From contig NC_049979.1 of NCBI RefSeq assembly GCF_000003815.2, positions 16,519,595 to 16,583,594 of the forward strand: a DNA stretch of 64,000 bases, in the 5' to 3' direction. Below, piece by piece: positions 2,001 through 64,000 of the stretch (position 1 is the first letter of the stretch; every line of letters begins with the position of its first letter). This DNA is from Branchiostoma floridae. Taxonomy: Eukaryota; Chordata; Leptocardii; Amphioxiformes; Branchiostomatidae. Made by a program: the position numbers and the translations under genes. Under the pieces are notes generated by a model. It saw nothing but the letters and a program-made list of their open reading frames with translations, did no database searches and had not been told where the DNA came from.

Positions 2001-2029
2001 TCTGGCTATTGGAAAATGACAAAAAATCC

Positions 2030-2640: not shown

Positions 2641-2691
2641 TCTGAAGATTTGACAGGAGAAAGAAGAAAGAAGAAACATTACGAATACAAT

Positions 2692-2725
2692 ATATTTCAC
2701 CATACCTGTGGTATGGCTGAAATAT
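2692..2725. repeat. Short hairpin at the end of a repeat element
   Basis: An inverted repeat has arms reading 'atatttcaccatac' and 'gtatggctgaaatat' with one base of mismatch or indel and a five-base loop. It follows a purine-rich GAAAGAAGAAAG stretch. It looks like the terminal hairpin of a non-autonomous repeat whose body is the 163-bp array just upstream. Confidence 0.5.
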
Positions 2726-2729
2726 AACT

Positions 2730-11751: not shown

Positions 11752-12259
11752 TTATATATAAAATAAGATTTTGTCCACTTTGAATTGGCATTCTTTAGTA
11801 TGCTGAGTGATGTAGTGAACAATAAAGTAAACAAGCAGAGTCTTGTACTCTAGATCTATAGACAGCTATATACAATGTATTACATGTAATCATAACAGGC
11901 AACCATCATTTCTAAGTTGGAATATATTAAAACCTGGTCCAATTTGTTCATCATGGACTATTGTACATGGAGATGGGGATATACCTACACCGTAGTACAG
12001 CACAACTCTGAAAAAGTTTCTTGACTACATGTACATGTATGTACTATAATTGTAGTCACTGTGATATTATAGAATATTGACAGTAATAAATCTCTATGTG
12101 GTAGATCTACAAACTCTAATAGTAAAGAGTATTCTATTGATTATAAGAGATGTCCCACACCTGTACATTTTCATTCCTTTGTACATATAGTTTTCTTAGG
12201 AGCACATACATATAACTATGTGATCTCATCCTTATATTATCATCACAGATTGACAACAA

Positions 12260-24045
<11,786 letters not shown>

Positions 24046-30535: not shown

Positions 30536-30621
30536 CTTTTTATCTAGAAACCGCAAACAAAATGTGCCAAGCCGCAAAGCAACGTGTGCTTAAACAAAGT
30601 ACATATGTGTGTGTATTGTAG

Positions 30622-32663: not shown

Positions 32664-35600
32664 TCCGCAGGTGTTCTCGGTCTCACAACACCTGGGCAGT
32701 CGCATCGTTGTCACTTACGGGACATCCTGCCGTCCACCTGCCGTCACAAACAAGTACCTGGTGAATCTGAAGCGACGGTCGTAGCAGATATGTGAGTACT
32801 GCATACCACGCGTGTTGTCTCCGGAATGATTCTCACTATGTGTTATTGGCAACCTGCCAACCTATGCAATCTCGGTCGTGACAGTGTCGGTATCACTGCT
32901 ATCGCGTTTAGCACAATTTATATTAAGTTAAGTGTGTTTGCAGATTTTTGGAAGCGTTAGTTTATAACTTGTAACTTAGCGATTAGAATCAATCAGTCAT
33001 AGATCATCACATTGCGATTCCGTGAATCGTGGGTACAAAAATCTTTCCAACACCCAAAGTAACATTATGATAGTACTTTTAAACAAAAATACATGTAACG
33101 TTAACAGCAAACCTCAAATTAAGTATTTGTTTATATGAACGGGGTGAACTTGGTCAACTTGACCGTAAGCAACGCGTTACGCTTTAAANNNNNNNNNNNN
33201 NNNNNNNNNNNNNNNNNNNNNNNNNNNNNNNNNNNNNNNNNNNNNNNNNNNNNNNNNNNNNNNNNNNNNNNNNNNNNNNNNNNNNNNNATACTTTATCAT
33301 TTTAAAATGGCTGTGCAGGGCTTACACACTAAAATACCATATAGATGACTTTAATTTGCCTACATGACTGTTATAACTTATAGGTCAAAACTCACACAAA
33401 GTTCCTACCATGGAGTGGACTCCACACCACTGCTCCAGGAGAAGACCATTGGGCAGCTGCTACAGGAAACAGCACAGAAGAACCCAGACAAGGAAGCACT
33501 GGTGTTCTGTGCTGAGGGCGTCAGGAAAACATTCTCACAACTGTTGCAGGAGGTGTGCTTCTATCATCTTATCAATGTCATATCTGCACAATAAAGACCT
33601 CACCTCACCTCACCTCACCTAGTCCCATCCTCATCAGGAGGGTCGGGGACTATGGTAGCCTCCAGCACAAGTCTAGATAAAGACATATGATGCAATAATA
33701 TACATGTAACGTAAGAGCAAATGGGGACAGGGATATAAGGGAAGAAAACATAATTTGACATATTGGATGCAATGTCACTAGAAGTATATGATTCTGCCAA
33801 TACACCCAGTAAGTATGATATAGAAAACAACACATTTTTTTTTTCATTTTCCCCCTAATATAAACCAATGTAGACTGATGCTCTAGCTGCTGGACTACTT
33901 GCCCTTGGCTTCCAACCAGGCGACCGTCTGGCAGTCTGGTCACCGAACCGGTACGAGTGGGTGTTGACACAATATGCATCTGCCATGGTTGGCATAATAC
34001 TGGTGGCAGTCAACCCTATGTTTGGGCCAGAGGAACTGAAGTATGCTCTGAACAAGGTACCAGTCATTCACAATTTGATAACAGCTTTCAATAGCTAGAC
34101 ATCTTCTACATTGTAGCTTATCAAAATTTCAAGATTGAGTAAGATTGAGCATTTCAATGTTAGCATTGAAACATGTCAATGTGTTAAAGGAAATGAATAT
34201 AAATCTACAGCATAGTTACAGGTTTTGAGTTCAATCTATCAGCATTCTGTGAGTCTTCATTGATATTGTGATATTGTGATATTGAATAAAATAGAATATA
34301 TCGGCACAGACTAAAGTTGAAATGCTCCTAGTATGGCTGTATAGCACATAACGTTACACATTTGATTATAATATGATTAATGACTTCAGAAAAGTTGTAC
34401 TACCAATAATGAATTACTGTACAATCATATATTTTTGATCATTTCTTTCATCTATGTGTCTCCTTCAGGTGCAGCCTCAGGGTATTGTGATTGCTCCAGC
34501 ATCTCCAAAGAGAGACTTTTACAAAGTGCTGATGTCTGTGGTCAGCTCTGATGCGGGATCCTCCAGTCTTAGTCAGCTGAAGGTCATCAGTATGAAAGAG
34601 GGGGAAACGGAGGGGTAGGGCAATTCTTTTGTAATCTGATACATTATTGTCAACTTGACAAAATTATTGCACGTTACTGTCAACAATTCTATGAAATATT
34701 GAATTTTCCACATTTTTCTAATGCACTTCAGTGATGTTCTGAAGTTTTGGGAAGTTACCAAAAAAGGAGGAGAACAGGAAGTGGAGAGACTGAAGCAGCT
34801 GCAACAAACCCTCCAGCCTGACCAGCCCATACACATCGCCTTCACCTCGGTAATGGATGGAGTAGATCAGACATTTTTATTACTTTTTCCTGCTTCTTTA
34901 ATCCTTTTGCAAAAAAAAAAAACTACTCAATTTGTGTCAAAAGTTAAGCAGTGTTATCCCTGTAACAACATGTTTGACTTAGAAACACAATGAGATGCAT
35001 GTTGTCATAGGGATTGAAATGTTCATCACAAATTGACTTTCAGGGCACTACAGGGCCTCCTAAAGCACCAGTCTTCTCTCACCGCCATGTGATCAACAAC
35101 TGCTACTTCACCGGCCGCAGACTCAACTATCATGAGGAGGTAAATAAAAAGTTTGAAGTGAAAATACAAAATAGTCAGTCAATGAAAGTCATCAGTTAAG
35201 TTACACCACACAAATTTGGATGTTTGTTTACAAGGTGTCAGATATTGTTGATGCATATATGTATGACACTCTAACAGGTGTCATCAGGTGCGTCACACAT
35301 AATGATAATGTGTTGTTATAGGACCATCGGCTGTGTGTTCCCATGCCCATCTGGCGTGCCCTGGGGATGATCGTGTGTAACCTGAACCCACTGGTGTTCG
35401 GACATACTGCTGTCTACAGTGGTCCTGACTTCAACCCTAAAGCTGTGCTGGCAGCCATCCACAAAGAGAGGTAAAATGCATTGTTATGTTTTTTCTTGAT
35501 AAAAATAGCCCAACATATCTGTACAAAAGTATTTCTTTTAAACTGTCACTGTGACAATGGTTCAGCATAATCATAGAAATCTAATGATCATTTCTTTTTC

Positions 35601-38600
35601 ATAGGTGTACATCTGTCTATGGCAATTCTCCAATGCTAATGGCCTTAGTCAAGCAGCCAACCTTTGGAGACTATGATGTCAGCAGCTTGAAAACAGGTAG
35701 GAGGTCATAAAAACTGTTGTCAAATGATGCAATAAAGATATGTAACATTGAAATTATACTTAAATGGTATAGATATGATAATGATATGTTGCTGTGCACT
35801 TTTGCATCATTTTGTGTTTTCTGCAGCAATGATTGGTGGGCAGGGTATAGGGGGTTCGGACCTGCCACTGCAGATGCTGCAGATGTTTAAACAGAAGCTG
35901 AACCTCATCAATGTGACGGTAATATTTTACAAAGCAAAATTTTGTGTTCTAGCTCAACTGTTTATGTTCTGAGCTTCCTTCCTGTGACTGTAAAATGTGT
36001 CTTTTTCTTATATGTTTGGTCAATGGAGACTGTAATATTCTCTTGTCGCACAGTATCAGATATTTGATTCCATCCTCACCTCACCTCACCCAAAACTTAA
36101 TCTGCCATTGAGGCAGCGATACAATCAACATGAGTTTATTTGATATGTTTGTGTTTGTGTTTGTGTACAGGTTGCCATGCCCATGACGGAGTGTGGCCCA
36201 GTAGCCTTCCAAAGTGTCCTGGGAGACCCAGAGGAAAAGCTGACTTCAACTGTGGGCCGTACCCTCTCCCATGTGGAGGTAAGGTGTTTAAAGGGGCATT
36301 AAGTTATCGTCTCTTTCAGAGAATATTCTGAAGTAAAATATCTGAGGGATGAGAGGATATCCCTTCACCTACAAACCTCTCTCTAACTAAGACTGAGTGG
36401 GATAGAGATTAGTGCAGTGCCCCACAATGCTGGACTACATGTAGACTGAGAGGAATCAGAGAGTAAGGCACAATAGACACCTGTTAGGTACATAAGAAAT
36501 GACTACATTGTAGATATTGCTGTAGTTAAATGATTGTTCTGTAATCAACCTTTACTGCATTTGGTTTTTTACTGGAATCTCTCCAGGTGAAAGTTGCTGA
36601 TGATGCCGGTTGTACCGTTCCTGTGAACACTCCTGGGCACTTCCTGACCTGTGGATACTACACCATGCTTCAGTACTGGGGTGACCAGGAGAAGACGGAC
36701 CAGGCTTTCACTGCAGATGGCTGGTTTCACACTGGGTGAGTTCATCAAGGGAGCAATATATTTAAGCTGATAATGGATAGGAAATATGATAGATTAAACA
36801 TTGCAAAACATTATCTTCTTAAAAACACTCTTTTGGATGTGATTGAATGGAAGAGGGAGGGGTTCATTGATGTGGAATTTGTCCTAAATATATCAAAAAT
36901 ATTTTGCCACTTGTTTGAAGAATGAGGCTGACTGTTTTATTTCCCACTCATCAGGGACATCATATCTATGGATGAAGATGGGTATGTTCAACTTCTGGGG
37001 AGGGAGTCAGAACGTATCAAACTTGGAGACAGCTACATCTTCCCTAAAGAACTAGAGAATGTCTTAAGGTCCCACAAACAAGTCAAAGATGGGCAGGTAA
37101 GACCAACAGTTGAAAATTCTTCTTTTCATGAAAGTGAAATTATGATTTATAACACCAGGTAATGTTAATGGCTTTGAAAGTTGGGAGCATCAGAAAAATG
37201 CTGCATTACAGAAAGTGAAGAGTCAACTTGTCCTTTTATTTGTGTGTCCAGATTGTAGAGTTGTCCGTTTCTGGAGAAACCAAGCTGTGCGCATGTGTTG
37301 TACTGGAAAGTGGAGCATCACTGTCCGAAACAGACATGTTGGATTTCTGCAAGGATAAGGTATGTGATCTTCATAAGGTATATCATTATACTGTTGTTGT
37401 TTTTTACGCTATAGTTGACAAGATCTTACATCTTATGAAGATCACATAAGGTTCATGTACTTTATTCTATTCTATCTATTGAAGACAAGTGATTTTTGAT
37501 GACAGATTGTATACAATACTAGCGTTACAATTCACTAAAATGTAAAACCGTTTTTTTGTCATCATCAGCTGCCAGCCATCCAAGTACCACAGTTTGTGTG
37601 CTTCTTTGACACTTTCCCTCTGACTCCTACTAAAAAGGTCAGTACTGGACTTTGTCAATTCTTATTTTTTACATCAGATTTTTTTCAAGCAGATTTGCCC
37701 TCTTATGATAATTCAATTACAACTAGTGTTCGGCGACCTCATACCTCCATGAAAATTTAGAGCTTTTGTAAATTTCATGCAACTGACTAACACATTAACA
37801 TAATTTAGGCATTGTGTTGTTCAGCATTGACTAACGTACACATGTCACAATTATAAAATTCCCATTATTAATCATAAAGCGGTTTTGCAATTTTTACATA
37901 AATTATGCAAATAAGTTCCTCATTACCATATTTGGTATCTGCTTATATTCCACCTATCATAATTAACATGTGTTACATTTATTGAAGTCCAGTTATTGAA
38001 AACAATGGAATCATACAATTTCCTCATTAATTATGCAAATTAACTCCTCATTTGCATAACATGTATATCATTATGAACATTTTGCATAAGGTACCCGCAT
38101 GCCTAAAATGCAGGCAATTCGTCCTTCCTTTCTGCAGTTATCCTCTTTAGAGTGTCTTGATAAAAACACCCCTGCAGTTCCACAATTAAATGTTAGGAGG
38201 CTGAAACTTAAAGACTGAAAGCTGTCTGCCACTCAAATGTCAAGACCATAGCATGTCTGGAACAAGAGATACATTGAAAAAACTGCTATGATAGAATAGT
38301 CTCATTAATTATGCAAATGTACTCCTATTTTGCATAATTAGTATCTTATCTTGTAAAATATTGTCTAAGGTACCTACAAACCAAAAATGATGAAAATCCG
38401 TTGTTTCCTTCTTGAGTTATCGTCTTCAGAAGTTTTTGACAAAAATGCCCCTGCTATCCCAAAATTAGACGCTAGGGGGCCCAAACTTATGTCACTTATT
38501 CCTGAGCACAATAGCTATCTAAGACTCAAAAATCGTGATCATAGCATGCTCAGAACGCCGAGATAGCAAAACCGGAAGTTGTGCTGCAGTACCAAGGGAA

Positions 38601-46820: not shown

Positions 46821-46905
46821 GTCCAGGACAAGAAGACCACATTACCCGTACCGTATGACGGGACCAGTGGACGCCATGGCCTCTCAACAGGCAGAGCCCA
46901 GCAAG
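46821..46905 (+). other. Probable first coding exon of the polyketide synthase
   Basis: The exon is bounded by an acceptor (CATCTCAG) and a donor (AAG|GTGGGT). It contains an ATG at 46855 whose 17 codons join in phase to the next exon at 48293. That next exon itself starts with ATG directly at its acceptor, so translation could alternatively begin there. An upstream leader exon must exist if this acceptor is real. Confidence 0.6.
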
Positions 46906-49900
46906 GTGGGTTCATCCCTTAGCCTTAAAGGCCCCCTCTCACTTGACGTGGGGCACGCTTGCGGCATTGCTGCGTTCGTTCACTGCGGCACTGTTGTGTT
47001 AATTTCGCCGATTTTGTCTTGCACTCACACTGACGTGCGGCACTGTTGCGTTTCTAGACTAAATGAACATGTTATTGACAATTGCAGCGTTGTCAATTTA
47101 TGAAAAATCACCGTAAAATGATGAGAATGCCCCAAAATGAGATTTATAATGAAAAGATTTCCCTTATGATAATGAATTATATGGTACATATGCTATAAAT
47201 AACCTTGAAAGACTTTTACAGTAAAGGAAATGACCCAAATAAACGGACACGAACTATATACCAGATTTCACTCGATGTGTACGTTTTGCACCATGTAACG
47301 TTATGTGTAATTATGTATGTTTATATGTTTATTCACCAATTTTGCAAATTTCTAAAATGAAAATGTTTGATATTTCATACTTTTTTTGTATGACGCTGAG
47401 TATTTTCATTGTCGGTGGATGGCTTGCCAGCCTATTGATGTCTAAGTCTATCATATTTGTAAAAAGTGAGAAAAATATGGCCCATGGGTCTGAATGACTG
47501 CAATTTTGTATTTTATCGGTGGCAGGCTGCCAGCAATGATTAGCTTGTAACGTTATAACGCAAACGCAAACTCGTTATCATGATCATCCAACATAAATAA
47601 TTTCTTTTTGAACGTTGTACGATAACCTTTATCTCTACATCCTTAGGTTAATCGATAAACCAGTTACTTATTTTTTGTTTTCAAGTATAAAATACTGACC
47701 TACTTTCCATTAAATAAATCAAAAGATGTATTTTTAAGTTAACTCTGAATACGGATACAAGGTAAGTTTTCTGGAATTCGCAGTGTTTTAACTGGATCGA
47801 AAACCGCTGTAAAATTATTAGAAATGCATCTAAAATAGTTTTTCGGTGATAAAATGGTGTTTACTTTTGATTCTTGGTGTAAAATAGGCAAAATATATCC
47901 TTGATACTGTTTGGGGCATGGTGGCGGCACTGTTGGGGCATTGTTGGGGCACCGTTGGGGCACCGTTGGGGCACTGTTGCGGCACTGTTGCGGCATCTTG
48001 CCACTTGCGTTATTTTTAAACTTTTTAAAAAACGTCGCGCTTGCAAGCGGCACTTCTAGGTTTGCTTGCGGCACCTCTAGGTTTGCTTGCGGCACCTCTA
48101 GGTTCCGTGGGGGTACATCTGCGTTTTCGAACGCAGCAATGCCGCAAGCGTGCCCCACGTCAAGTGAGAGGGGGCCTTTAGCCTAGCCATGTCCATCTTT
48201 GAATTGTTTACCTTTTATATGAAGAAAATTATTTTCATTATCAAATCATGTCTGCAACCAGTGTATCATTTTGCTGTCGATGTATTCCACAGATGGAAGA
48301 CAGCAATAAGGACCATTTCGACGGGTTCCCCGAGGAAAGAAACTATCGCGCACAGAGCAGAGAAAAGCGATGTGAAGAGACACAGCAGTCATGTCAACAT
48401 CCAGGTCCAGACGACAGCCACTATGCACTCGCTATAGTCGGAATCGGTGAGCCATAAAGGAATCCAACTTTCTAACACTACTGAACCAAGAACCTTTATA
48501 AGAAGTCTGGTACCATATTTTCCTATCCATAAGATGCTATACCAATCAATACTAAGTGTGCGTTATCTGTAATCAATTTCAGGTTGCCGAATGCCTGGCG
48601 GCACAGACACTCCCTCGAAGTTCTGGGACGTCATCAGAGAAGGAAGAAACGTCATCACCGAGGTTCCACCAGAAAGATGGTCCCTTGAAGCCTACCACAG
48701 TACAGACCCACACCAGTCAGGTACCCACGTCACACGCAAGGCTGGGTTTGTGGACGACATCGACATGTTCGACCATACCTTCTTCAAGATCTCACCTCGT
48801 GAGGCCGCCATGATGGACCCCCAGCAGCGCCACCTGCTGGAAGTGACGTACGAGGCGTTTGAAGATGCAGGTATCACGCCTGAGAGTGTGTCTGAGTCGT
48901 GTGGTGTGTTTGTAGGAATAGGCATGATAGATTATGCTTTGTTCATGGCAGGAGACAAACACCTGTTCAACTCATATGTAAACACAGGAATAGCGCATAG
49001 CGTGGCCGCAAACAGAATCTCCTATGCTTTCAACCTGAAGGGACCCAGTCTTGCTGTAGATACCGCATGCGCAGCATCAATGACAGCCCTCCACATCGCG
49101 TGTTCCTCCTTGAGGAACAAAGAATGCAGCGTCGCCCTCGTGGGGGGCAGCAATGTGCTCCTCATGCCGGAGGTAACCGTAGCTTTCAGCGCAATGGGGG
49201 TTCTGTCACCTGACGGATTCAGCTGTCCATTTGACGCATCTGCCAACGGCTACGTCCGCAGTGAAGGGTTTGGAGCCGTCCTGATCAAGCCTCTCAGCGA
49301 CGCCATACGAGACAGAGATCACGTGTACAGCATCATCAGGGGAAGTGCCATATCCGATAACGGCTTCAGTCACAGCATCACCATGCCGTCCTCCAGTGCA
49401 CAGGAGCAGCTCATGAGGACAACCTACGCCCGCTTCGGAGTTCCCCTCTCAGATGTCCTGTACGTCGAGGCTCACGGGACCAGTACGCCCGTCGGAGATC
49501 CCGCAGAAGCTGAAGCCATCGGAAAAGCCTTCGGTCAGCATCGCGCCTCCCCCATGAGGATCGGGTCTGCCAAGAGCAATTTTGGACACATGGAGTGCGC
49601 TGCAGGAATGGTGGGTGTCATCAAGACAGCACTGATGCTGGATAAGCGAACCCTCTGTCCCTCCGTCAACTACACCTCACCGACTCCTAAAGTTGACTTT
49701 GAAGAGCTGGGCATCTCTGTACAGACCAAAGTAGAGAACTTTCCTGACAACCAAAACGTGACGCTTGGCGTGAACTGTTTTGGATTTGGTGGAGCCCTGG
49801 CCCATGTCATCATGGAGGAGCACAACGCTACACCGCCAGTAGCTCCGACCCACCACGGGAGGGGATGGCAGTTCGGACCAAGTGACCAAGAGGGTGACTT

Positions 49901-52900
49901 CATCATTCTGCCGCTGAGTGGAAAGTCTTCAGACGCCCTCAGAGACCTTTCTTCCAAGTGGCTGACGTTTCAAGAAGAGAAAGATGCCCTCAGCGTTTCT
50001 TCATGGGTAGCGACACGCAGAAACCACTATCAAAATAGACTTGCTGTCGTCACCAATTCTGGGGCCAAAGCAAGAGAAGGCCTGCAATGTTTTGTCAACA
50101 AGATGGCTGCTGACGATGTCATCACCGGAATATCACAGAATGCCCGTCCTAAAGTTTGCTTTGTCTTTCCTGGTCAAGGGCAGCAATGGGATGACATGGG
50201 AAGGAAGTTGTATCAGCTAGAGCCTGTGTTCAGGGAAACAGTCGATGTCTGTGACCAGATCTTCACACAAGTCAGTGGATGGTCCCTTATGCAGAAGACC
50301 GGATTGTTCAACACAAGCGACGGTCCCGCCGAGTTCACACTTGCAGAAATGAAAGTCTCCCAACCCGCAATACTCTTCACCCAGGTGGGGTTGTTTGCTT
50401 TGCTGAAGCATTGGGGCATTTCCCCTGACGTGATCGTCGGTCACAGTCTAGGAGAAGTTGCAGCAGCCTATGCGTGCGGTGGTCTGACTTTGGACGAAGC
50501 TATCCGGGCTATCTACATCAGAAGCACAGAACAAGCCAAACTGCAGGGATGTGGGAGCATGGCAGCCATGCGTGCATCAAGGAAAGAGGCTGAGGAGCTT
50601 GTTGCCAAGAGTCAGGGAGTGAAACTGGCGTGTGACAATTCTCCCACATCTGTCACAGTAGCAGGAACGACAGAAGCCATTGCTGCACTTCAAGATCAAA
50701 ACCCAACAAAGGTCAAAATGCTGCGTGTCTCCTGTGCCTTCCACACCGACCACATGGACCCCATCAGAGAGTCCTTCCTCGAGGCGATGTCTTCCGTACA
50801 GCCTGACAGACATGGAGAAGCTCACGCACCTTTGTACTNNNNNNNNNNNNNNNNNNNNNNNNNNNNNNNNNNNNNNNNNNNNNNNNNNNNNNNNNNNNNN
50901 NNNNNNNNNNNNNNNNNNNNNNNNNNNNNNNNNNNNNNTGGTGGAAAAACATCAGAGGAGAAGTCAAGTTCACGTCAGCCATTCGGTCCATCATCCAAGA
51001 TCACAATCCTGACGTTTTCATCGAACTTGGTGCCTCCGCTACGCTGTTGTCGTCCGTCAGCCAAACACTCAAGCATGAAAGCTGCCCAATAAAAGTCACC
51101 GTGCCATGTGGACAACGTCAGCAAAACGACCACAAATGCATGCTACGTGCCTTGGCCACATTGTACGTGAATGGGGTGGACATCGACTGGACAAATGTAA
51201 CTCAGGACGCAGCTGAATGGACGCCTGCCCCAACATACGCCTGGCAGCACCAACGACATTGGCAAGAGGCCGAATCCTCGCGGAAAAGGAGGCTGGGTCT
51301 CGAAGATCGCACCTTCAAGGGACAAAACGGGCACATCACCCTTGAGAAGTTCCCCTTCCTTGCAGATCACGTAGTGAACGACAGCGTGGTGTTTCCTGGG
51401 GCGGGATATATTGAATACATGGTGCAGATGGCTGTAGATAGCTCTGAGAACCCAACACTGCAGGACATTCAGTTTAAAAACGTCCTTGTTTGGCCAGACG
51501 CTAGTGACCTCAACAAAACTAGCGCCACCATCCAGCTGACGTACACAAAGGAGGGAAGGAAGCTAGAGGTAGCCACAGACAGAGTACACGCTGGGTGTCA
51601 GCTCACTCAACCTAGCAATGTCAACTCTGAGAGTGTTCTGGACACGACGACTACAGGGGCCATGGAAAAGATCACGGGTCAGAATTTTTACGAAAGATTC
51701 AGTGACTTGGGACTGATGTACGGCCCCGAGTTTCAGGTCGTGAACGAGGCCTTCGTGGGCGACTGGAAAGCCATTGGCTTCCTGAAGCCAGCAACGGATG
51801 CGCAGCAAAGAGTCCAAACTACAACACTGGATGGGTGCTTTCAGGTTGCCCTCGCTGCCATAGGACCCTGCTCAACTCTATATCTCCCCACTCAGATCAC
51901 CACATTCAGCATGCTTGTACCCTCCCTACCACTCGGGGAACACATGGTAGTACATGCCACAGTTGTCTCCCGTTCCAGCATGTCAGTCAAGGCCAACATA
52001 ACACTGGCGACAGTCCAGGGGAACATCCTTGCGCAAATCGACGGCTTCGAAGCGACAAATGTTTCCGGTATCAACTCTGACGTCGACACAGACAGCTGCT
52101 TGTATGAAACAAGATGGCAGCCTGTCATCTCTCCTCTGCCGGAAACAAGTATCTTCTGCGACCTGTTCAAAGACGAACATCTACAGAAACAGTACAGCGA
52201 TGAAATGGAGATGATAGAAGCAGCAGAGAAAGCCCTGCCTAACCTCAAACGTCTAGCTTTATCCTACGTTCAACTCGCGTTGGATACTGTTCCAGACGCC
52301 GAGGTCAGCCCAAGAAACAAGAGGTACATAGAGAGGCTCAGAACCGTCATCGACGACGTGGATAAGACCGCATTTGACACGATGTCACTAGATGAGATCC
52401 ACAAGTCCCTGGATGAGATGAGAAAAGACGTACCGGCGATGAGGCTCGAGTTCAGCATGCTGCAGCGCCTTGGGGACATTCTGCCGACCATTCTCCGTGA
52501 CCCCTCAGCTGCCCTGCCGATTCTCTTTGCCGCCGACTGCCTAGCTGACTACTTCATGGACTCACTGACAACAAGACTGTACTACCGAGCTTGCACTGAT
52601 GCCATAGAACAAGCCGTGAAGACCGCACTCGAACGGAAACAAACTGTTCGCATTCTTGAAGTCGGAGGTCGTATGGGGGGACTGGCGCGCTACCTACTGA
52701 AACCTCTCAAAAGCCAAGGAGATGCGGGGCACATTGAGTACGTCTTCACCGACCTGAACACAACCTTCTTTGCACATGCCAGCCAAGTCCTTGAAGATTA
52801 CGCTTTTGTCAAGTATCAACAGCTCGACATCGAGAAAGCGGTGGAGCCACAGGACTTCATCCCAGGAACGTTTGACATCGTCGTCTGCATGGACACCCTT

Positions 52901-55900
52901 CACTCGGCGGTGGACGTGATGGAAGGCTTGAAGAACATGCAAAGTCTTCTCTGTCCCGGTGGCTGGCTTGTCATGTTCGAAGCGACAAACGCTTTCTACA
53001 TGTGCGAGGTTGTGTTTGGATCATTGGAGCTTTGTTGGGTGTATGATGATGACTACAGGATGGACACATGTTGGCTCTCCAGGGAAGGGTGGAGCAACCT
53101 ATTTGAAGATGGAGGAATGCACGATGTTGTGAGTGTGTCATCACCTCAGGAGTTTTTCCATTCTATCACCATCGGTAGGAAACCCACGCCCTTACAACAA
53201 GCAGCTCCTGCTATTTTGCAAACTAATGACAGCCAACAGTGGCTTCTCGTGGGGCCCCCTGACAGCCCCCTTATCAACACAGTTCAGAGGCTGCTACCCG
53301 ACAACACAATGGTACGTTCCATCGGTGACAGGATCGACATTCCCAACAATGGCCCTCCCTTGCGAGTTGTGTACGTCTGGCCAGAAGACGACAAGTCCCT
53401 GGTACACGCCCGGTCCCTAACCAACGCCCTGTACCAGGCGTCCGAGAGAGTTCAGGACATGTGGGTTTTCACAGTAAGTGGCAGTGTTGAGTGTGCCTGT
53501 CCGACAGCATCTGCCGCCACGGGCTTCTTCCGAGTTGTAAACAACGAGATCAGAGACCTCCCAATCTACACAGTAGATCTACCGTCAGACATTCTGAACG
53601 GCTTGACGGACGTGGTTGAGACCTTGCTGAAGTCTGACCCACCGACCGAGAGGGAGCTATCCATCCGTAACGGCGAAGTCCTGACCCCAAGGCTCGTGAA
53701 GGCGTCCATCTCAGACGGCATCAGCACGTCGCCCTCCGGAAGCTGGGCTCTGGATATCGCTCCTGGGAAGACAGGAACATTGGATGACATGGCGTTCTAC
53801 GGGCAGGCATCCACATCTCTGTCAGACAACGGAGTCAAAGTCAAAGTTCATGCAGCCGGCTTGAATTTCAAAGATGTAATGATGGCTCTGAGTCTTCTGG
53901 AAGGGCTCAAGTTGCAAACACAGTTTGGCCTGGAATGTTCAGGAACAGTCGTGGAAGTCGGTAATGATGTGAAGAGGATCAAAGTTGGAGACGAGGTCAT
54001 CGCCTTTGGTGACCACTGCTTCGCGTCACACGTGACTTGTGACGAGCACTTTGTCATGGCCAAACCTCCACACACCAGTTGGACGGATGCAGCTGGGTTC
54101 AGCATGGTGTACATCACTGCGTACTACGCCTTGATCGAGAGAGCACGGCTACAAGAAGGGCAGACACTGCTGATACACTCTGCCTGTGGTGGGGTGGGAC
54201 AAGCAGCCATACAAGTGGCAGGCATGGTGGGGGCCCGTGTGTTCTGTACGGCCGGATCTGAAGAGAAGCGCAACTACCTACGGCAGATGGGAATGACACA
54301 CGTGTCTGACTCCAGGTCTACCCAGTTCTACCATGACGTCATGGAATGGACAGATGGCGAAGGAGTAGATGTCGTCCTCAGCTCCTTGTACGGTGAACTG
54401 CAAACTGCCACCATGAAGTCTCTAAAACCCGGAGGCACGTTCTGCGAAATCGGGAAACGCTCCATTCTCGAAGGCGTAGGCATGGACATGGGGCCACTGT
54501 TGAACAACAAGACGTTTCTGTCTGTTCAGCTAGATCTGCTGATGAAGGAGAGACCGAAGTACGTCCGAAAGATGATGGAGACAATCTGCTCTCTTCTGGA
54601 GAAAAGACATATCTCTCCTGTGCTGACGACAGTTAAAACTATTGACGACTACAAGGAGACGTTTCGGTGGATGTCAAAGGGCCAACATGTCGGCAAGGTT
54701 GTCTTTGAGATGCCAGTCAAGTTTGAACCGGAGAGCTTGGTGCCATCTTCTCACATTCTAGAGGAAAACGGTACTTACCTCATCACTGGCGGGTTTGGAG
54801 GGGTTGGACAATCCCTGGCCCGTTGGCTGGTAGACCATGGAGCAAAGCACATTGCCCTCCTGTCCAGAAATGGGTGCAAAACAGCTGAAAATGTTCACAC
54901 TGTCGAGTACATGGAGTCCAAAGGTGGAAAGGTGTACACGTACGAAGCGGACGTGTCAAACAAGACATCGTTGACAAACGTGCTGAACCATCTCAGAGCC
55001 GACCCCTCGCTTCCTGCGCTGAAAGGCATCTTCCATCTCGCTGCTGTCATTGATGATGCCAATGTGTTGGACGTGAAGGACAGTCAACTGGAAAAGTCAC
55101 TAGCAGCGAAGGCGTGGGGAGCCCTCCACCTGCACGAGCTGACACAGGACGATGACCTGGACATCTTCTTCCTGCTGTCATCTGTCACTGCCGCCTGGGG
55201 GAATCCAGAGCAATGTGGGTATGTGGCGGCCAACAGCATCCTGGATGCTCTCGCTGAACACCGACACCGGCGGGGACTTCCAGCACTGTCTCTCCAGCTT
55301 GGAGCCGTCAGAGGTGTGGGGATCCTGGAAGGCAACACTAAAGCAGCCAAAATCGTCACAGGGAAGGGTATGCTGACTCTCCACATTGACGAGTGCCTCC
55401 AGATGCTGCCACGCCTGCTACAGGCCAGGGACACTCCTGTTGTCACATTAGCCAATATGGTAAGTACAGCTGATATACGGTTTTAGTTGTTTTCATCACC
55501 ATGTCGGTTTGCATAAACATATTTTCAATTTATCCTGTATTTATGGTAGCATGTAGTAACAGTAGCGATGTGCATTTGTTATCACATGTTGTCTATCACA
55601 CACATCTGCTGATTGTGCTTCTGTCTTTAACATCAAAACAGGATTGGGCCAAATGCATGCAGTTCTCCTACCCGACGAGCATGAAGTTCCGTCATCTTGC
55701 AGCTGGAAAGAACAAGGAGAAGTCCGGTACGTTTCTGTGACGTCATTACTTTTAATGATCTGTTGATGGTGTGTTTTCTTTATATGCTGTGTACATTTCA
55801 TCATCACGGTTCAATAGGTACATTGTCTTCCATTGCTATGCATTCCCATACTGATAACATCTTCTTGACAAAATAGTTGACGCTGACTTGAACGAAGACG

Positions 55901-56145
55901 ACCTACGCGAGCAGGTTCTGGAGCAGCTGGGACAGATCCTCTGCATGCCGCCCAGCCAGATCGACCCCGACCAGCCCATGATCAACTACGGCGTGGACTC
56001 CCTGATGGCCGTGGACATTGTCAACTGGATGAACAAGAACTTCGACCTCAGCGTGTCCCAACTGGACATCTTGGGCGGGATGACAACGACCACGCTAGTA
56101 GGGAAAGCTGTAGTTGGGGAGGTAGCACTTCCCTTGCGCAAGTAA
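46855..56145 (+). CDS. Highly reducing type I polyketide synthase (animal FAS-like PKS), KS-AT-DH-MT-ER-KR-ACP
   Basis: Iterative megasynthase that builds and reduces a carbon chain on its carrier protein. Exons: 46855-46905, 48293-48446, 48583-55459 (interrupted by 100 N), 55642-55726, 55877-56145; about 2445 residues are readable. KS: DTACAAS with Cys231, EAHGTS His366, NFGHME His404. AT: FPGQGQQW and GHSLGE with Ser690; the gap falls in late AT, and sequence resumes at WWKNIRG. DH: His codon 51368, DxxxQ Asp codon 51830. A methyltransferase-like region follows (about 52650-52990; ILEVGGRMGG, CPGGWLVMFE). ER: AGLNFKD and CGGVGQ. KR: TGGFGGVG, LSSVTAAWG, YVAAN. ACP: GVDSL with Ser codon 55999. 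There is no thioesterase after the ACP and no condensation or reductive-release domain. The order matches sea-urchin and mollusc animal PKSs and fungal highly reducing PKSs more than fatty acid synthase, which ends in a thioesterase. The product cannot be deduced. Confidence 0.94.
46926..48180. mobile_element. Non-autonomous DNA transposon in a PKS intron
   Basis: The ends are inverted repeats of about 53 bases, identical as far as I can align them: taaaggccccctctcacttg at the left and its reverse complement at the right. They are flanked by TA if the inverted repeat is taken to start at AAGGCC. The interior near the right end carries many direct GGCACTGTTG/GGGGCACCG words and a 23-bp tandem (gcggcacctctaggtttgctt-like). 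There is no transposase. The 139-codon reverse-strand open frame is only the translated repeat. It occupies most of the first coding intron. Confidence 0.8.
50839..50938. other. Assembly gap, 100 N, inside the PKS acyltransferase domain
   Basis: Exactly 100 N interrupts the large PKS exon. The reading frame before the gap and the frame after it differ by an amount that 100 bases cannot satisfy, so the true gap is not 100 bases (it should be 2 modulo 3). By family comparison some 20-35 residues of the acyltransferase are missing. Confidence 0.97.
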
Positions 56146-57690
56146 TGACCACGAGGGGGTCAGCGTAGGATGGTTAACCCGAACCTGTACCATTAGCTGC
56201 TAACGCTACGATTTTTAAGATCATGGTCTGACATACATGTACCCGAATGCGAGCTAGACAAACAACTCAAAACCACTCAATGTTGTCTTGGGATAGGTAT
56301 ATACTTCTTTTCTTTTGCGATGTCTCAGGAACAGTACCGTTTTTAAAGTTTGGACAACGTCTGTTTTTATGCAATTTTATCATGTAAATGATACTGCTTC
56401 TTCTTTTTGCCTTGAATCTAGTTTTAATAGAGTCGTAATAAGTACAAATGTGTGGTGATATATGGTACTTCAGTAGTAGCAGTTTGTTTCTGCTATGGAT
56501 AAAGGGCTATGGATGAAAGCTGGTTCTGTCCTGCCCTGCCCTGTTTAGCTATGTTAACGTTATAAAATGTCTATCTATGTATGTATGTAATTGATTAAGC
56601 TTATACTCGTGACATTTTAAAAACGACAATTATTTATACTATTAATACTTTTAGTCGATTCATACTATGTTATATTCAAGATGTACATCTTGCTGGCCAG
56701 TAAAAGGCATTCTTAATATATTTTGTATCAAAATATTTTGTATGACTCATATATACTCGTATAAACCAAGCCAGTATAGTCACCAGTTAAACACGGAAAC
56801 ATATCCTTTGTTTTTTTTGATGCAAGACTTTCATTATTTAAATCCTATTATTGTTGCATAGTCTCATACTAGTAATGTAAAGAATCTCACGCAAGCTTTA
56901 GTGTTGATGATCAGCCATACACTACCCTCACTACCCCCCCCCCCCCCAATGCCATTTGCAATGTATAATAAAGCACAAAGGATCGAGCTGATACATAGGG
57001 AATACCACATTTGCGCCAGGCATGCCTGTGCGTTTTTATATACTCGTAGTAGACGGTGGGACAAGTACACCTTCTTTTTTCAGTGTAGTTTTTTTTATGA
57101 CCTAAAGAATAAAAGTAGATGATGAACTCACATTGTTTCCGCGTTGTCTCCGTTTTAATGTAAAATGACATCTTAATAGAGCACCGTGAATAGCGTCATG
57201 GCCTTCTTCAATGGTTCTCCATAAGTTGTAATTAAATCACAGGTAATCTAATATAAACATCTCAAGGCCACAATGTCTCCGAACTTGACATAGATAATCT
57301 GCGCTCAGATTATTAGTCTCCAGACTCTCCACCAGACTCGTTTGGGTCTCACTAGTTTTGTGTTGCTTCTGGGAGTTTCGAAAAGAATTCCTTCCCAATT
57401 TGAAAAGAACCACCACAAATCCCAATTACAAATCTATTTTGACAAAAGTAATTATATGCTAGTCAGAGCATTTACATTTCACACTAAAGGAGGTACCTAC
57501 TTATGTTAACATAATCAAGGGTGTTGAATCGATAGAAATGAATTGTTTAAAAACTTTAAATATTTTCGGAAGTAAAATTATATATTGCTGATTGACATAT
57601 GGAATAATAGTGACAGATGCTTTTTAAAAAGACAATTTCTACCACAGTGCATGATACGAAGTGACCATGTTATAAGAGGCATGTTTACTA
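56146..57690. other. 3' flank of the polyketide synthase
   Basis: It probably contains the PKS 3' UTR. Canonical AATAAA signals occur at 56967-56972 and 57108-57113, 0.8-1.0 kb after the stop. A run of about 15 C lies near 56934-56948. No gene is seen. Confidence 0.4.
56967..56972 (+). terminator. Candidate polyadenylation signal of the PKS gene
   Basis: First canonical AATAAA after the PKS stop at 56145; a second lies at 57108-57113 with T-rich surroundings. Which is used cannot be told from sequence. Confidence 0.4.
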
Positions 57691-57692
57691 GT

Positions 57693-58422
57693 CAGGGCTC
57701 GAAATACCACATGCATATGCAAGTTTGTGCATGTAAAATTGGTGTGGTGCAAGTAAGTTTGGACCAAACTTGCACCAGTGCAAGTTACTTTTATCCACTA
57801 ATACCTGACTTTAGAAAAAGCTTACACACACCAAGAATATTGTCTGCCATTGAAAGGTAAAAGAAAACAACACTGAATAAAAAAATAGCCTAAATTTGTT
57901 ATTTCTAAACTTGGTTAGACATCCAGGTAAACAAAATTTGAAGACAATTCCATCTCTATAATGCTAATAATTCCTATGGTGTTGTCTTACCTTGATTTGC
58001 ATATGAGTAAATACATTTTGCATACAATTTAGTGACTTTGATATGATCAACAGTACTGGATTTTCCAGTTATATGTGTTTGTATTGAGATGTTCTAGCGA
58101 TGGTTAAGAATAGTGATGGAAGTCACTCGAAGAGTCCAGAAGAAATCTATTGATCTTATCAAGTTGTAGACATTGAATTGTCTTAAGCCTAAATTCACAT
58201 TTGTTGTACAATTTGAAATCCAAAATAAAATACGCTTTGGAAAACAAATATCCAAACATGTGGTCTTTATGTATCCCCATATATTTGCAAATTTTCAGAA
58301 GAAGAATAAAGGGTTAACAGTTCACTATTTTGGGTTGTGCAAGTAAGTTTCTTTTGGTGCAAGTTACCTTTGGCTTAACTTGCACTGGTGCAAGTTGACT
58401 GAAAAGTGTATTTCGAGCCCTG
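57693..58422. mobile_element. hAT-like non-autonomous element
   Basis: The element is 730 bp. Its ends CAGGGCTCGAAATAC and GTATTTCGAGCCCTG are exact inverted repeats. The flanks repeat ACTAGT on both sides as a likely target duplication; hAT duplications are usually 8 bases, and here only six match. Subterminal regions carry repeated and inverted gcaagttactt/gtgcaagt words, as in hAT elements. No transposase frame is present. Confidence 0.75.
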
Positions 58423-59437
58423 ACTAGTATTTTAGGTTACAGTAATAATGCATGTATTTCTTTAGTCATTTTACAAATACAGATATATTTTGATACTTTT
58501 GTTCTGTTTTCAAAGAAATTGAAGGATGGTTATTATATTATAAAATGGGTAATACTGATAATAAGTCATAATTGAATATTAGAAATTGTAGTGCCAGATC
58601 AAAGGAAGGGATTTACGCGTCATGAAACGTAAAAAGCTGAGAACTTGAATAATCATATCATTCTTAATGAAGCAGAATTTTGATTTATTTCCACCTTTTT
58701 TTCCTGAATTAAGTCCCAAAAGCAACAAATGGGATCGGTGTGGCCTTGGTTAAAAACAGTACAAGTTAGCTAAATGATACGAATACTAAGTAATTTGACA
58801 AAGGCCATAAAATTACAGATTTGCAAATTACTGGCAAATAATTTGCCAAACTTGGCAATTTTGCACTATGTTCAGTCAACACAATGACTACTGATTCCTG
58901 AATACGCAAAAACGGCGCCGTCACCAACAGTTTGACATGTCTTTATTTTATTGGGAGACGTTTCTATCTATGGACCGGTTATCAATCCACCGGTGTGACG
59001 GAGCTTAACTTCTGCCATGTCTATGTAGGCAGTGCCAGTCATTCTCACATCTCACTATATTTGAGACTATACAAAGCTACAGACAACATTTACACTTTTT
59101 CCTGGGATCTCTATGGCATTCTATGATGAAATTTTCTACGTTCATACCCTAATCATATTCATTTGCTACTAATTAGTTTTACCGTGTAGCTGTAAACATT
59201 TGTTAACATTAAACTTACCGACGAGGCGGAAAACTATATGAAACACCAACCTGGTACTACATCTTTTAGAATTTTAAGGCTTAACAGATTGTTACAAAAT
59301 TATGATAAATAGACTTAATTTAAAATAACCACATTAATCGCTTTGAAATTTATATCAGTGAGAATCAAGGAAGCACTGTGTGACAAACATTCCCAAAATA
59401 CAGCATTCCTGAGGAAGAGATTTGATGTAGAGTCATA
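58423..59437. other. AT-rich spacer downstream of the FMO gene
   Basis: It probably includes the 3' UTR of the minus-strand monooxygenase. On the minus strand AATAAA occurs at 58942-58947, about 490 bases beyond its stop codon. No other feature is recognised. Confidence 0.4.
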
Positions 59438-62400
59438 TTACAACAAACAATATAGCGCCACCAGCAGCATTCCGAACAACACGATAAACTTTACGATTTT
59501 GGCCAATGAAAGGAAGGACTGTTCCTTGTCCAGAGCAGGTGACCTGAAGGGGTACAGGGTGTTGGCCAGGGCTGACTTGGCGTGGTCAGCTGCTCCTGAC
59601 CAGGGGTGTGGCCCCAGCAGGCGGTACTGGACAGAGAAAGCGGGGCCGAAGTAGCAGAGGAAAGCTAGTTTCGGGTCCCGAGGAAGGAGCTTCCAAAACG
59701 ATGGTTTCACTCCGATCTCTTCGGCAATGTCATCCCGGTACGGCACGTTCATCATCTGTAAAAGGAACGAGATATCTTAGAATCATTCAGACCTATAAAC
59801 CAATCATAAGTAATATAGATGATAACCAATTATAAGATACAGTTTATCAATGTGGTAGCATATTTTTTCCTTGCACCTAAAGTTCAAGATGGAAGTTGAT
59901 GTTACGTAGTCCACGATTTCTTCTGCTTTATGTCGTGTTTATGAACTTGACTATGGACCAAACGTTACCGCCTTGCTTCCCCCAGTAAAGAAATATTACC
60001 CCTGTATCCAGTCTAACAAAACTGTGTTACCTGAAGTTTGACGTAGCCGAACCGCTGCTTCAGCTCCAGCTTGTCGGAGCGGGCCCGCTCCAGCATGGTC
60101 TCCTTGTCGGGAAGCTTATTCAGGCCCTGGGACAAGATAGGTTGGCTGTGTTATGACTCCAGATAACTACAAATCCTATCTAAAACTGATATGATTCTTT
60201 TCTTACGAGAGAGGACGTAACAGTTCTTACTTGCTTATGAATTGCCCATTTGTTTGCCCAGTGACACATGTACTGTCTACCCTGATCACTTAAGTCAAAT
60301 TAATATTTTCAGGACGTTCAAACTGGAAACGAGTGACCTTAGGGAGGAATCACTGTTACAAAACGACCCACTTACCAAGAACACCCTGACGGCCCAGCGA
60401 GCCTGCAGTTCGTAGATAGGAGGATGGGCCCCTATGGTAGACAGGCAGCCGATCACGGACAGGGTGGGTTTTGTCAGCTCCGCGGGGAACACCAACTTGT
60501 ACAGGTTCAGGTCCTCCGTGTTATCTGAGGAGGAACAGGATTGTCAGTCAAAGTGCACGAAAGTTGTCAACTGCTCCTGAATAAAATAAGCTTTGAAAAT
60601 TGTCGTATGCTTACACTTCGTTGTTGTCAGGGTATTTTATCAGTTAGAAAACTATGCACGGGACTTACCAGGAAGAATGGACTTGTCACTGAAGTTAAAC
60701 GCCAGACTGAAGCCAGTGGCGAACACCACAGCGTCCAGTCCGTCCACTGTACTGCCGTCCTCGAACCGAGCGGTGTGCTGGGTGAACCGGGAGAGCTGGG
60801 GCTTCGTGATGACCTGTTGGGGACAGGTGTGTGATTATCAAAAGGTAGTCACAATTACATATTAGATTAGACGTGAAGCGCTATAAAACTGTCACTGACA
60901 CACATAACAAGATAGATAACTGAATAAACAGTCTGACAACAGATCATTAGAAGCACAAACACCAAGTAGAATGCATGAAATGTTGTGTATTGTTCAATCG
61001 TTCAATCGACACATTTACAGTATGCATTATATAAACTTACCTGCCCAGTGGCCAGTCTGTAGCCTATTTCATCATTGGCCATGACGGAATGTTTGAGCGG
61101 TTCGGCCGGACACGTCAGCCCGTAGTTGTCATGGCACACTCTGGCGTTCGCCTCGCCCTTAATGATTTTGTTGACGATGAACTCGGGCATGCTCATGAGT
61201 ACCCGGCGCAGCATCATGTCCCGCGGCATCCCGGCCTGAGCCAGCCGGGGGAGCACCCAGGCACCGTCCCTCAGACTCAGGTACACCTGCGGAACGGCAA
61301 GGGTTGTCAGGATGAACAGTGCACGTTCATAGAGAAGGGTCAAATAGAGCCTCAGTACTGATTAAAAAATTTTATTTTGAAGTACCACTCGGATATGCAC
61401 AATTGGAGTTATGGGTCTTGGCGGACTGGTTTATCGAAGGGAAGAAAAAAGTCAACATGAAATTAAAGAAGACTATAGCACAGCAGTTGTCATAAACTCT
61501 CACCTGTGACGCCACCTGAGCGATCTCCGCCGCCACGTCGCCTGCAGAGTTTCCGGCCCCTGATGATAGATTTGTGGATGAATGAGGTTATCTACAGTCA
61601 TTTGACTTAAGAGTTAAACACAGGACTAGAATGACTGAATCTGGGTATGTAAGTGGAAGGTGATAACTAACCTACAACAACCACCTTCTTCCCTCTGAAC
61701 TGTTGAGCAGTCCGGTACTCCTGACTGTGCATGGTGACGCCTGAGAAGCCCGACAGACCTGGCACGTCTGGAACGTACGGCCGGGCGAACACGCCGTTAC
61801 ACACCTGGGGAGGAAGTAGAGAATCATGAGGAAAGTTTAGCCTGGAGTTCAGCCTTGTTAGCTTTGATCCGCTCCCGAAAGTGGCTACCCTTCGGGAGCG
61901 GACCAAAGCGAACAAGGCTGGACTCCAGGCTAGTAAAGTTGAGATGAGTTAACTTAGCGAAGGAAAATAAGTACAGTATGGAAGTACCAAAGGGGGATGG
62001 ACCGTCACGATCACAGCTTTGAAATAATCACATGTAGAAGATGTCGCAAGTGATCGGTTGGATCTATTACATTTCGTCGCAGATTATCAGTGATCTCTGT
62101 GTTTCACATTTCTATTTCTATGGGCACGTACCATGATGGCTTCAAAGATGTCTTTCTGTTCCGCATCGCTGTGCCCCGTCTGTACGGTACGGACCTCCCA
62201 CCGGCCTGTCTCATCAAAGTCTTCTGTCTTCTCTATGTGACTGACCTGGAGTGATAGACAGGGTTGAACGTAAGAAAGGAGAACAACAGAACAACGATTT
62301 AGAATAGATGGTATAGAAGCTGAAAGTGGTTCAACAACAAAAAATTCCCACCTGTGTGCCGAATCGGATGTGTTTCTTCAGGTCGAAGTGCTGAGCGTAG

Positions 62401-62851
62401 TCCTGCAGATATGTGTACACACGGTGGTACGGCAGGTAGGGGGGCGTGTCCTTAGGGAAGGGGAAGTCGCTGAATGACATCATTTCTTTGCTGGAGTTGG
62501 TGATGAGAGAGCGGTACATGGCGGCGCCCTGGTTGGGCCTGACGTCGTCGGAGTAGTGCCATACGCCGCCTGGAATATTTATATTATAAAATTATTAGCA
62601 CTAGCACGCAATAGGTAGAAGCCAAGGGGACAGGGAAAATACACCTCTATTCTAATCAATAAGACAGGTACATGCCATACTGTGCCTCTATATCAGTACC
62701 ATGCAGACTACCACAAAGAACTATACTATTAGTCATAACTTTCAAAGTAGTCGTGGGTTGGCATGGCAGCTGGTGGAATATTGACGTTTGACTTAAACGA
62801 ATGATAGGTATTGCTAACAGGCTAGGCGTGATGTAACATATACCAACAGTC

Positions 62852-62900
<49 letters not shown>

Positions 62901-63099
62901 TGTTCACACGCACCAATGGAATTAGTTATCTTATGTTTCAACGCTGTTGAACTGAACAATGAAGACGTAATGTCTGGTTCTTACCGAGATCATCATGTTG
63001 CTCGAAACACACAGGCTGAAGCCCCTCCTCCAGACAAGCCTTGATTGACGTGAGTCCGCTCACCCCGGCTCCTATGATTGCCACTTTCTTAAAACCCAT
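59438..63099 (-). CDS. FMO: Flavin-containing monooxygenase, 10 exons
   Basis: FAD- and NADPH-dependent enzyme inserting oxygen into N- or S-nucleophiles (or ketones, for FMO5 types) on the ER membrane. Exons in transcription order: 63099-62985, 62569-62352, 62245-62132, 61804-61672, 61559-61504, 61286-61041, 60813-60669, 60524-60376, 60126-60031, 59755-59438. All introns are GT-AG, phases agree, and the product is 529 residues (vertebrate FMOs about 532-558). Motifs: FAD-binding GAGVSG 10-15; FMO signature [11 protein letters not shown] 169-179 (FxGxxxHxxxY); NADPH-binding GAGNSAGD 194-201; FATGFS 325-330. The C-terminal [20 protein letters not shown] (510-529) is a membrane anchor as in vertebrate FMOs. 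The start was chosen because the FAD motif follows within ten residues; an in-frame upstream ATG at 63141 would add 14 residues. The vertebrate paralogue it matches best cannot be told here. Confidence 0.95.
61838..61932. repeat. Foldback element (about 42-bp arms) in an FMO intron
   Basis: The left arm 'tagcctggagttcagccttg...gctcccgaa' is mirrored by 'ttcgggagc...caaggctggactccaggcta' around an 11-base loop, with a few mismatches. It is a compact MITE-like hairpin 34 bases upstream of FMO exon 4 in transcription order. Confidence 0.9.
62851..62900. repeat. (CA)n microsatellite in an FMO intron
   Basis: About 24 CA dinucleotides with two small interruptions lie between FMO exons 1 and 2. 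Confidence 0.96.
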
Positions 63100-64000
63100 G
63101 GCTAGGGAAGGAAAGAACAACAGGATTTTTTGGGACGACAAGAACCGGTTACAAATGCTGACTTTTAAAGTCTACTCAAGAAATAGTTTTATATGTCTTC
63201 AAATATCTAATTTTATGAATTGTGTAAATTATAAATTGTCACATTGGTATGGCGCCTGGATAAAGCAGCACAGTGTGTTGTACAGCGAGGGTTTTCTGAT
63301 AACCACTGAGAATTCACCCACTACATTATCCCATTATGACAATATGCTAAGAAACGTATCAAAGTGTAGCAAAGAGAGGAAGATCAAGGAGCAATGAATA
63401 AAATCTCACCCGTGCTGCCACCTGTGCAAGTCTTACCTGGGGACTAAGCTTTCCAAACAAACGTCGTCTTACCTGATTCAGTTGGTAACCTTTCCACACA
63501 ATGAAACTCTTGAACTGTCGATGGCACTCTACTGGTAGTTTTGCGTACTCCTGTAGTGTACGTGGAGTACGTGGACTGCGCTTCCCAGTGCTCAGACAAT
63601 GTGTGTATGTAAGGCTCAGTTCTGGGAATGGGAGCGCCCAGTGAGTCTTGACTGGATAGGACATCGAAGGTCACAGCAGCCAGGAAGAATTACTTTCCAC
63701 AACCACAGTGTCCTTGGCGTGAGTGTGCGTGTGCGTGTTCCGCTGGGCTCGCACCTTCTCACCACCGGAAATGACGAACAGGACCAGTACGGGGATTTAC
63801 ATGTATAGTCCGCAGCAGGAAGTTAACACCAAAGCGGGATTCCGAAGCACTCCGGAAGTAGACACTGGAGTTTTACGGTGAACCACAATGCACGTCATGG
63901 ACTGTTACTCGTACGGAGGTCAACACGTCTTGAAGGTACTCTCCAAGCAGAGGTCGAGTCGCGGAGATATACTAGTAGTCGAAAAAAATACAGAGCGGCT
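63100..64000. other. Upstream flank of the FMO gene
   Basis: Should contain its 5' UTR and promoter on the minus strand. Open frames here (up to 101 codons) show no domain. I see no TATA box at a convincing distance and cannot place the transcription start. Confidence 0.35.

Follow-up and report, generated by a model that had tools for sequence, protein, structure and literature searches.

A lancelet polyketide synthase gene with no thioesterase found, probably of the canonical iterative type I build of sea urchin Pks1

We analysed a stretch of 64,000 nucleotides of Branchiostoma floridae DNA (assembly GCF_000003815.2, contig NC_049979.1, positions 16,519,595 to 16,583,594, forward strand), hereafter the window, which lies on a 35.3-Mb contig (C1) of the 513-Mb genome with its 431 contigs. 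On the forward strand, at 46855–56145, the window carries a polyketide synthase (PKS) gene of five exons, starting with an ATG at 46855, ending with a TAA stop codon at 56143–56145 and encoding 820 residues 5' and 1624 residues 3' of a 100-N assembly gap. An inverted paralogue, C1L, is located approximately 50 kb to the left, and other paralogues are found on contigs C11 (C11a and C11b) and C4. The parts of the gene, in window coordinates, are as follows.

46855–46905, + strand, exon 1: 17 codons with the start codon ATG and a GT donor; a similar exon is present in C1L, with which 15/17 residues align
48293–48446, + strand, exon 2: start of the ketosynthase (KS) domain, defined by splice sites; 84.6% identity over 52 residues in C1L
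48583–50838, + strand, giant exon 3 before the gap: KS to ~49673, acyltransferase (AT) from ~50160; Pfam PF00109, PF02801, PF16197, PF00698
48921–48932, + strand, KS motif GMID: GMMD in C1L, C11a and C11b, GMSD in C4, by alignment of the five genes
50839–50938, no strand, assembly gap of 100 N within AT: 47 nt at the same place in C1L
50939–55459, + strand, exon 3 after the gap: AT end ~51181, dehydratase (DH) ~51329–52066, methyltransferase-like region (MT) ~52370–53230, enoylreductase (ER) ~53825–54703, ketoreductase (KR) ~54770–55312; Pfam and PDB matches
52664–52681, + strand, S-adenosylmethionine (SAM) loop GGRMGG of MT: GAGTGG in all five solved methyltransferases shown
55642–55726, + strand, exon 4: 96.4% identical in C1L
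55877–56145, + strand, exon 5: acyl carrier protein (ACP) ~55909–56082 (PF00550), a short tail and the stop codon TAA; 89/89 residues identical in C1L

Exons 1, 2, 4 and 5 are all matched by counterparts in C1L, and exon 3 (48583–55459 with the gap included, its start set by hand) stays open for 751 codons before and 1507 codons after the gap, with no stop in these 2258 codons. The gap as written disrupts the frame and leaves two open reading frames (ORFs), and since it sits inside AT, the gene is not complete in this assembly. The first-pass annotation, made from the letters of the window alone, had described a complete PKS without a release domain; a real gene that runs through all the domains to a stop codon without a thioesterase (TE) is indeed present, but the word complete has to be dropped. 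Intron 1 holds a 1255-bp element (46926–48180) with perfect 53-bp terminal inverted repeats, whereas intron 1 of C1L is short and lacks it; the element is probably a transposon that was inserted after the PKS duplication.

Pfam analysis gave the domain order KS-AT-DH-MT-ER-KR-ACP, followed by the stop codon, with E-values of 1.9e-87 for KS, 6.3e-39 for KS-C, 2.1e-50 and 1.3e-4 for AT on either side of the gap, 2.3e-16 for DH, 1.2e-13 for MT, 3.8e-21 for ER, 6.8e-58 for KR and 1.6e-10 for ACP. This bears out the earlier description of an animal PKS with reducing domains and a methyltransferase-like region and without TE. Residues and motifs with catalytic roles in KS, AT, DH, ER, KR and ACP are present: the KS Cys in the motif DTACAAS (DTACASS in C4), the AT Ser and His in GHSLGE and CAFH, the DH His and Asp (motif LDGCFQ), the ER dinucleotide-binding motif HSACGGVGQAA, the KR Lys, Ser, Tyr and Asn (aligned to mycocerosic acid synthase), and the ACP Ser in GVDSL. 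The KR Tyr is kept in 5/5 of the giant-exon paralogues described below. The Gly of the DH motif HxxxGxxxxP is retained in C4, while its position is occupied by Glu in C11a and C11b and by Asp in the window gene and C1L.

A genome-wide search with PF00109 returned 35 matches, which, grouped by place, amount to 14 or more PKS loci plus a solitary KS on contig C7. Five of these loci have one giant exon (class A: the window gene, C1L, C11a, C11b and C4), five have a TE (class B) and four have a split KS (class C). Over the giant exon, the class A proteins are 63–96% identical to each other, and the window gene is identical to C1L at 96.2% of 2259 positions, to C11a at 81.9% of 2258, to C11b at 80.7% of 2257 and to C4 at 64.8% of 2192. 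The ratio of nonsynonymous to synonymous substitution rates (dN/dS) is 0.203 against C1L, 0.143 against C11a, 0.146 against C11b and 0.114 against C4, the last with a dS of 2.2, which is near saturation. The window gene is therefore under purifying selection, which was seen in all six domains tested; KR has values of 0.04, 0.10 and 0.08 against C1L, C11a and C4, and the loosest domain against C1L is DH (0.39, from 28 changes). The long open exon 3, taken together with dN/dS values of 0.11–0.20 against four paralogues, excludes a chance origin of the PKS reading. C11a and C11b also form an inverted pair (C11 12270129–12276986 and 12313047–12319901), 93.7% alike over 6.9 kb.

To place the KS domain, we compared its scores against PDB sequences. 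The best scores were obtained with CurL (399 bits), mycocerosic acid synthase (336), PKS16 (332), which we take to be a Dictyostelium protein, and LovB (296), whereas fatty acid synthase (FAS) reached 277 bits at best; the highest total, 593 bits, belongs to one chain with two KS domains (302.9 and 288.0). The mollusc enzymes EcPKS1 and EcPKS2 are absent from the best 60 of 154 matches, the 60th of which scores 230.5. A FAS-type KS used as a contrast query behaved differently: it gave 456 bits with EcPKS1 and 424 with EcPKS2, which outscored every other PKS shown except a two-KS chain (491), and from rank 11 onward the scores were at most 302. In a KS tree of 14 rows, six of them partial or joined (LovB, PsoA, C4, two of class B and one of class C), the five class A genes form one clade (100/100) and FAS a separate one (100/100); FAS is represented by two vertebrate-type rows, there are no rows of animal FAS-like PKSs (AFPKs), and L006, L008, the other class C loci, 7zma and PKS13 were left out. 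The class A clade kept its 100/100 support when the tree was rebuilt after removal of PikA1, LovB and the single row of class C. Thus, as the first-pass annotation had supposed, the window KS is not nested in the vertebrate-type FAS rows, and by score it is not an AFPK. The tree does not resolve the deep order: forcing class A and FAS together costs 0.90 log units (approximately unbiased test, p-AU 0.241), and a distant sister relation of class A to FAS is not rejected. The window KS does not group with the fungal highly reducing PKSs, which the first-pass annotation had named for comparison: LovB and PsoA, a PKS fused to a nonribosomal peptide synthetase, group together (100/99, both rows partial) and the window KS falls outside them. 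That the sequence is a bacterial contaminant, or was acquired recently from a sampled bacterium, was considered and rejected, the gene being spliced and located on a 35.3-Mb contig; a GTDB scan with the KS, which reaches close relatives only, gave 18 pattern matches, 0 of them confirmed by tblastn.

No TE domain was found in the PKS protein with Pfam. Eight stop-to-stop ORFs of at least 70 amino acids between the stop codon and 59651 (one ORF overlapping a downstream flavin-containing monooxygenase (FMO) gene being left out) contained no TE, the two matches obtained (E 0.12 and 0.18) being insignificant; an AATAAA is present at 56967, 3' of the PKS stop. Genome-wide, PF00975 gave six matches, five nearly full and one weak exon on contig C180. 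The five are located on C1 at 15.87, 28.88, 34.27, 34.38 and 34.46 Mb, and each has a KS exon at a distance of 5 to 9 kb that belongs to a PKS class other than that of the window gene; the nearest TE exon found is approximately 700 kb from the window gene. No TE exon behind 56145 was thus found by either the ORF scan or the PF00975 search, in agreement with the first-pass claim, although a TE split by introns could escape, because the genome profile search handles one exon at a time and assigns scores to its best candidates only. A type II thioesterase-like fragment with an internal frame change was observed at C180:167301–169300 (L036); its best PDB match scores 39 bits, and a medium-chain FAS thioesterase 21 bits.

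The MT region matches eight distinct PDB sequences: CurJ (106 bits), AprA, PsoF, DisA, a putative methyltransferase, LovB, the citrinin PKS and, weakly, an insect O-methyltransferase; in the same comparison no FAS chain had an E-value better than 0.001. The SAM loop reads GGRSGG in a single class A gene and GGRMGG in the other four, with Arg for Gly in 5/5, and because this replaces the GAGTGG loop, we read MT as probably non-catalytic (structural) or weakly active. The His and Glu that are catalytic in such methyltransferases align with those of 5/5 shown and are kept in the four paralogues too. Furthermore, MT is as conserved as the other domains (dN/dS 0.16, 0.08 and 0.10), and therefore an unusual active form may exist.

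The fungal highly reducing PKS LovB likewise has a domain order with MT and no TE. It differs from the window gene in that its KS groups with PsoA and its ER acts in trans (PMC7280274). Closer counterparts are already in print. Table 2 of Hojo 2015 (PMC4604110) presents 13 B. floridae PKSs, five of them with KS-AT-DH-MT-ADH-KR-ACP: BRAFLDRAFT_91451, with an extra mark behind, 87410, 89867, 87413 and 125650, with AMP in front. Compared by domain string, these five and the five class A genes agree in string and number; the window gene is likely among them, judging from number and pairing, and the AMP-fronted model may be the ligase gene upstream in the window, fused to the PKS by gene prediction. 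The same source describes a sea urchin 'polyketide synthase 1-like' with the same domain string, its KR being flagged for a missing active-site residue, so the TE-less KS-AT-DH-MT-ER-KR-ACP build is published for both lancelet and sea urchin. It also treats animal PKSs as distinct from animal FASs and lists canonical chordate PKSs without TE from fish and birds (medaka OlPKS and others), which resemble the window gene in this respect but are KS-AT-DH-KR-ACP enzymes with no MT or ER.

The sea urchin enzyme SpPks1 and the crinoid enzyme CrPKS share the domain order of the window gene and have no TE (Li 2024, PMC11414698). In these echinoderm PKSs the KS motif G(M/L)MD (GMMD or GLMD) has a bearing on the length of the chain; at the presumed corresponding position, C1L, C11a and C11b have GMMD, the window gene GMID and C4 GMSD. 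The MT of these echinoderm enzymes is regarded as a pseudo-domain, SpPks1 is active without its reductive domains, and in both enzymes the KR, unlike that of the window gene, lacks Tyr and the products are aromatic (PMC11414698). The mollusc enzymes EcPKS1 and EcPKS2 also have KS, AT, MT, DH, ER, KR and ACP and no TE, but their KS is FAS-like, EcPKS1 uses methylmalonyl-CoA and their ER is inactive (Torres 2020, PMC7280274). According to Lin 2024 (PMC10764717), AFPKs are reported from molluscs and arthropods only, and the PKSs of echinoderms belong with the canonical ones, apart from AFPKs; the first-pass annotation had lumped the sea urchin and mollusc enzymes under one FAS-like heading. Mollusc PKS genes have few introns, mostly at the N end, whereas AFPK and FAS genes are intron-dense (PMC10764717), and the window gene, with its four introns, two near each end, fits the mollusc PKS pattern in part. 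SpPks1, CrPKS (PMC11414698) and EcPKS1 (PMC10764717, PMC7280274) all work without a TE, and among such relatives the chain is released when an aromatic ring closes or, as may be the case for EcPKS1 and EcPKS2, when a pyrone forms (PMC10764717). A literature search, with most subscription journals outside its reach, found no paper on lancelet PKS function among the matches listed.

Taking these results together, we consider it probable that the window gene, in a lancelet-type genome, encodes an iterative type I animal PKS that belongs with the canonical and not with the FAS-like enzymes and has the build of sea urchin Pks1. As to its substrate, reduction pattern, MT state, release and product, we infer the following from sequence. 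AT would load malonyl-CoA, since GHSLGE and CAFH are malonyl-type motifs by the rules given in Torres 2020 (PMC7280274) and PMC3908369; KS would condense repeatedly on the single ACP; and the ACP-bound chain would be reduced by KR and DH, joined by ER in some of the rounds or in all of them. Because KR keeps its Tyr, unlike that of the echinoderm enzymes, the product would be a reduced or partly reduced chain and not an aromatic pigment precursor. Release probably requires no TE or takes place in trans, so that the chain may leave without an in-cis TE, either by cyclisation, if the late rounds skip reduction, or with the help of a trans-acting enzyme. Several observations weigh against this reading. 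The DTACAAS/DTACASS form of the KS motif and the Asp in HxxxGxxxxP of DH count against a fully competent enzyme, and MT, with its His and Glu retained, may be active. The malonyl-CoA assignment is weak, because EcPKS2, first predicted to be a malonyl-CoA user (PMC7280274), has GHSLGE as well and yet the products of the EcPKS1/EcPKS2 clade are methylmalonate-derived pyrones (Lin 2024, PMC10764717). Finally, given that the reductive domains of SpPks1 are dispensable, an intact KR would not prove that it is used.

That the gene is a pseudogene, an allele duplicate or an assembly artefact could be suspected from the gap in AT and the 96.2% identical inverted copy, but this is extremely unlikely, with exon 3 free of stops and dN/dS at 0.11–0.20. 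Similarity to C1L, still 92.9% and 89.3% in introns 3 and 4, ends at the PKS stop codon (the 500 nt that follow are 44% alike, taken as chance level), which disfavours the allele reading and points to gene conversion or to an abrupt edge of the duplication. The window gene being an AFPK, the grouping of the first-pass annotation, seems very improbable: the domains are much as in EcPKS1, TE is likewise missing, GHSLGE is shared with EcPKS2 and a sister position of class A to FAS is not rejected; however, the KS scores are PKS-like (CurL 399 against FAS 277, with EcPKS1/2 outside the best 60 of 154), the reverse of what a FAS-type KS shows, and AFPKs are intron-dense and reported from molluscs and arthropods only (PMC10764717), whereas the window gene has four introns.

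Unlikely, though by a smaller measure, is the manufacture of an aromatic pigment precursor by KS, AT and ACP alone, with idle reductive domains as in SpPks1 and CrPKS. The shared domain order, the lack of TE in both and the GMMD or GMID motif speak for it, but the KR Tyr missing from SpPks1 and CrPKS (PMC11414698) is kept here and in 4/4 paralogues, and the low dN/dS of KR points the same way. The PKS could also stand in for FAS, acting as a malonyl-specific, fully reducing FAS minus its TE, with the acyl chains freed by a free type II thioesterase. The reductive domains do look active, and a KS query of the vertebrate FAS type (it matches PDB FAS at 777 bits) gave 25 genome matches, all of them PKS-class exons or the lone C7 KS, the best 48% identical. 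The same query recovered split class C exons at 36–48% identity, and a search for the acetyl-CoA carboxylase family had six matches, on contig C147, so intron-rich genes are within reach of the search; still, no vertebrate-type FAS was found in the assembly with this query (exon-wise search, best candidates scored). A FAS thioesterase query gave no match in the genome, nor did PF21149, which matched no control either. The absence of FAS is thus a lead and no more, as the queries were of vertebrate type and the gene may be missing from the assembly. The type II TE-like fragment on C180 would fit such a stand-in, but it shifts frame inside, and the many diverged PKS copies suggest specialised metabolism; we regard the stand-in as rather improbable. 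The broader proposal that the chordate lineage lost animal FAS and that TE-less, malonyl-specific, fully reducing PKSs with a separate thioesterase make its fatty acids is a long shot.

The genes and features around the PKS are the following.

12000–24100, + strand, exons of an ABC transporter: PF00005, 2.8e-7
25500–30600, − strand, 5'-nucleotidase gene: by eye, with a weak metallophosphatase match (2.9e-4)
33189–33288, second 100-N assembly gap, directly before the first ligase exon found
33355–37757, + strand, ANL-superfamily acyl-CoA ligase gene: joined exon pieces; best PDB phmmer match 118 bits, acyl-CoA synthetases
59441–63171, − strand, FMO gene: two pieces, Pfam FMO-like 1.6e-15 and 5.1e-12; low end by eye

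The PKS and FMO genes form a unit that is duplicated in inverted orientation (window 48231–63114 and C1 16501836–16518190), and the two copies flank the ABC transporter, 5'-nucleotidase and ligase genes. Five protein pieces of the duplicated FMO are 96–100% alike, and the DNA blocks 88–97%. Pieces of the ligase, FMO, ABC transporter and 5'-nucleotidase had no match at E 1e-4 near the C11 (110 kb) or C4 (35 kb) paralogues, and the same search found nothing in the 20 kb to the right of the window (one nucleotidase query piece being a few letters off). A biosynthetic gene cluster of ligase, PKS, FMO and ABC transporter is therefore unsupported, as FMO belongs to the inverted duplicate and no match to the neighbours was found beside the C11 and C4 paralogues. 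By position, the upstream ligase and the downstream FMO are candidate release partners. A further inverted copy, of 1.7 kb and 99.9% identical, connects window 1053–2730 with C1 16480754–16482431 and is perhaps a mobile element.

Few animal PKSs have known products, and the window gene bears on the way in which animal PKSs without a TE release what they make. It is likely a reducing chordate relative of the sea urchin pigment enzyme, which raises the question of whether the echinoderm enzymes lost reduction from such an ancestor. The missing FAS, if real, would also be relevant to fat synthesis in a chordate.

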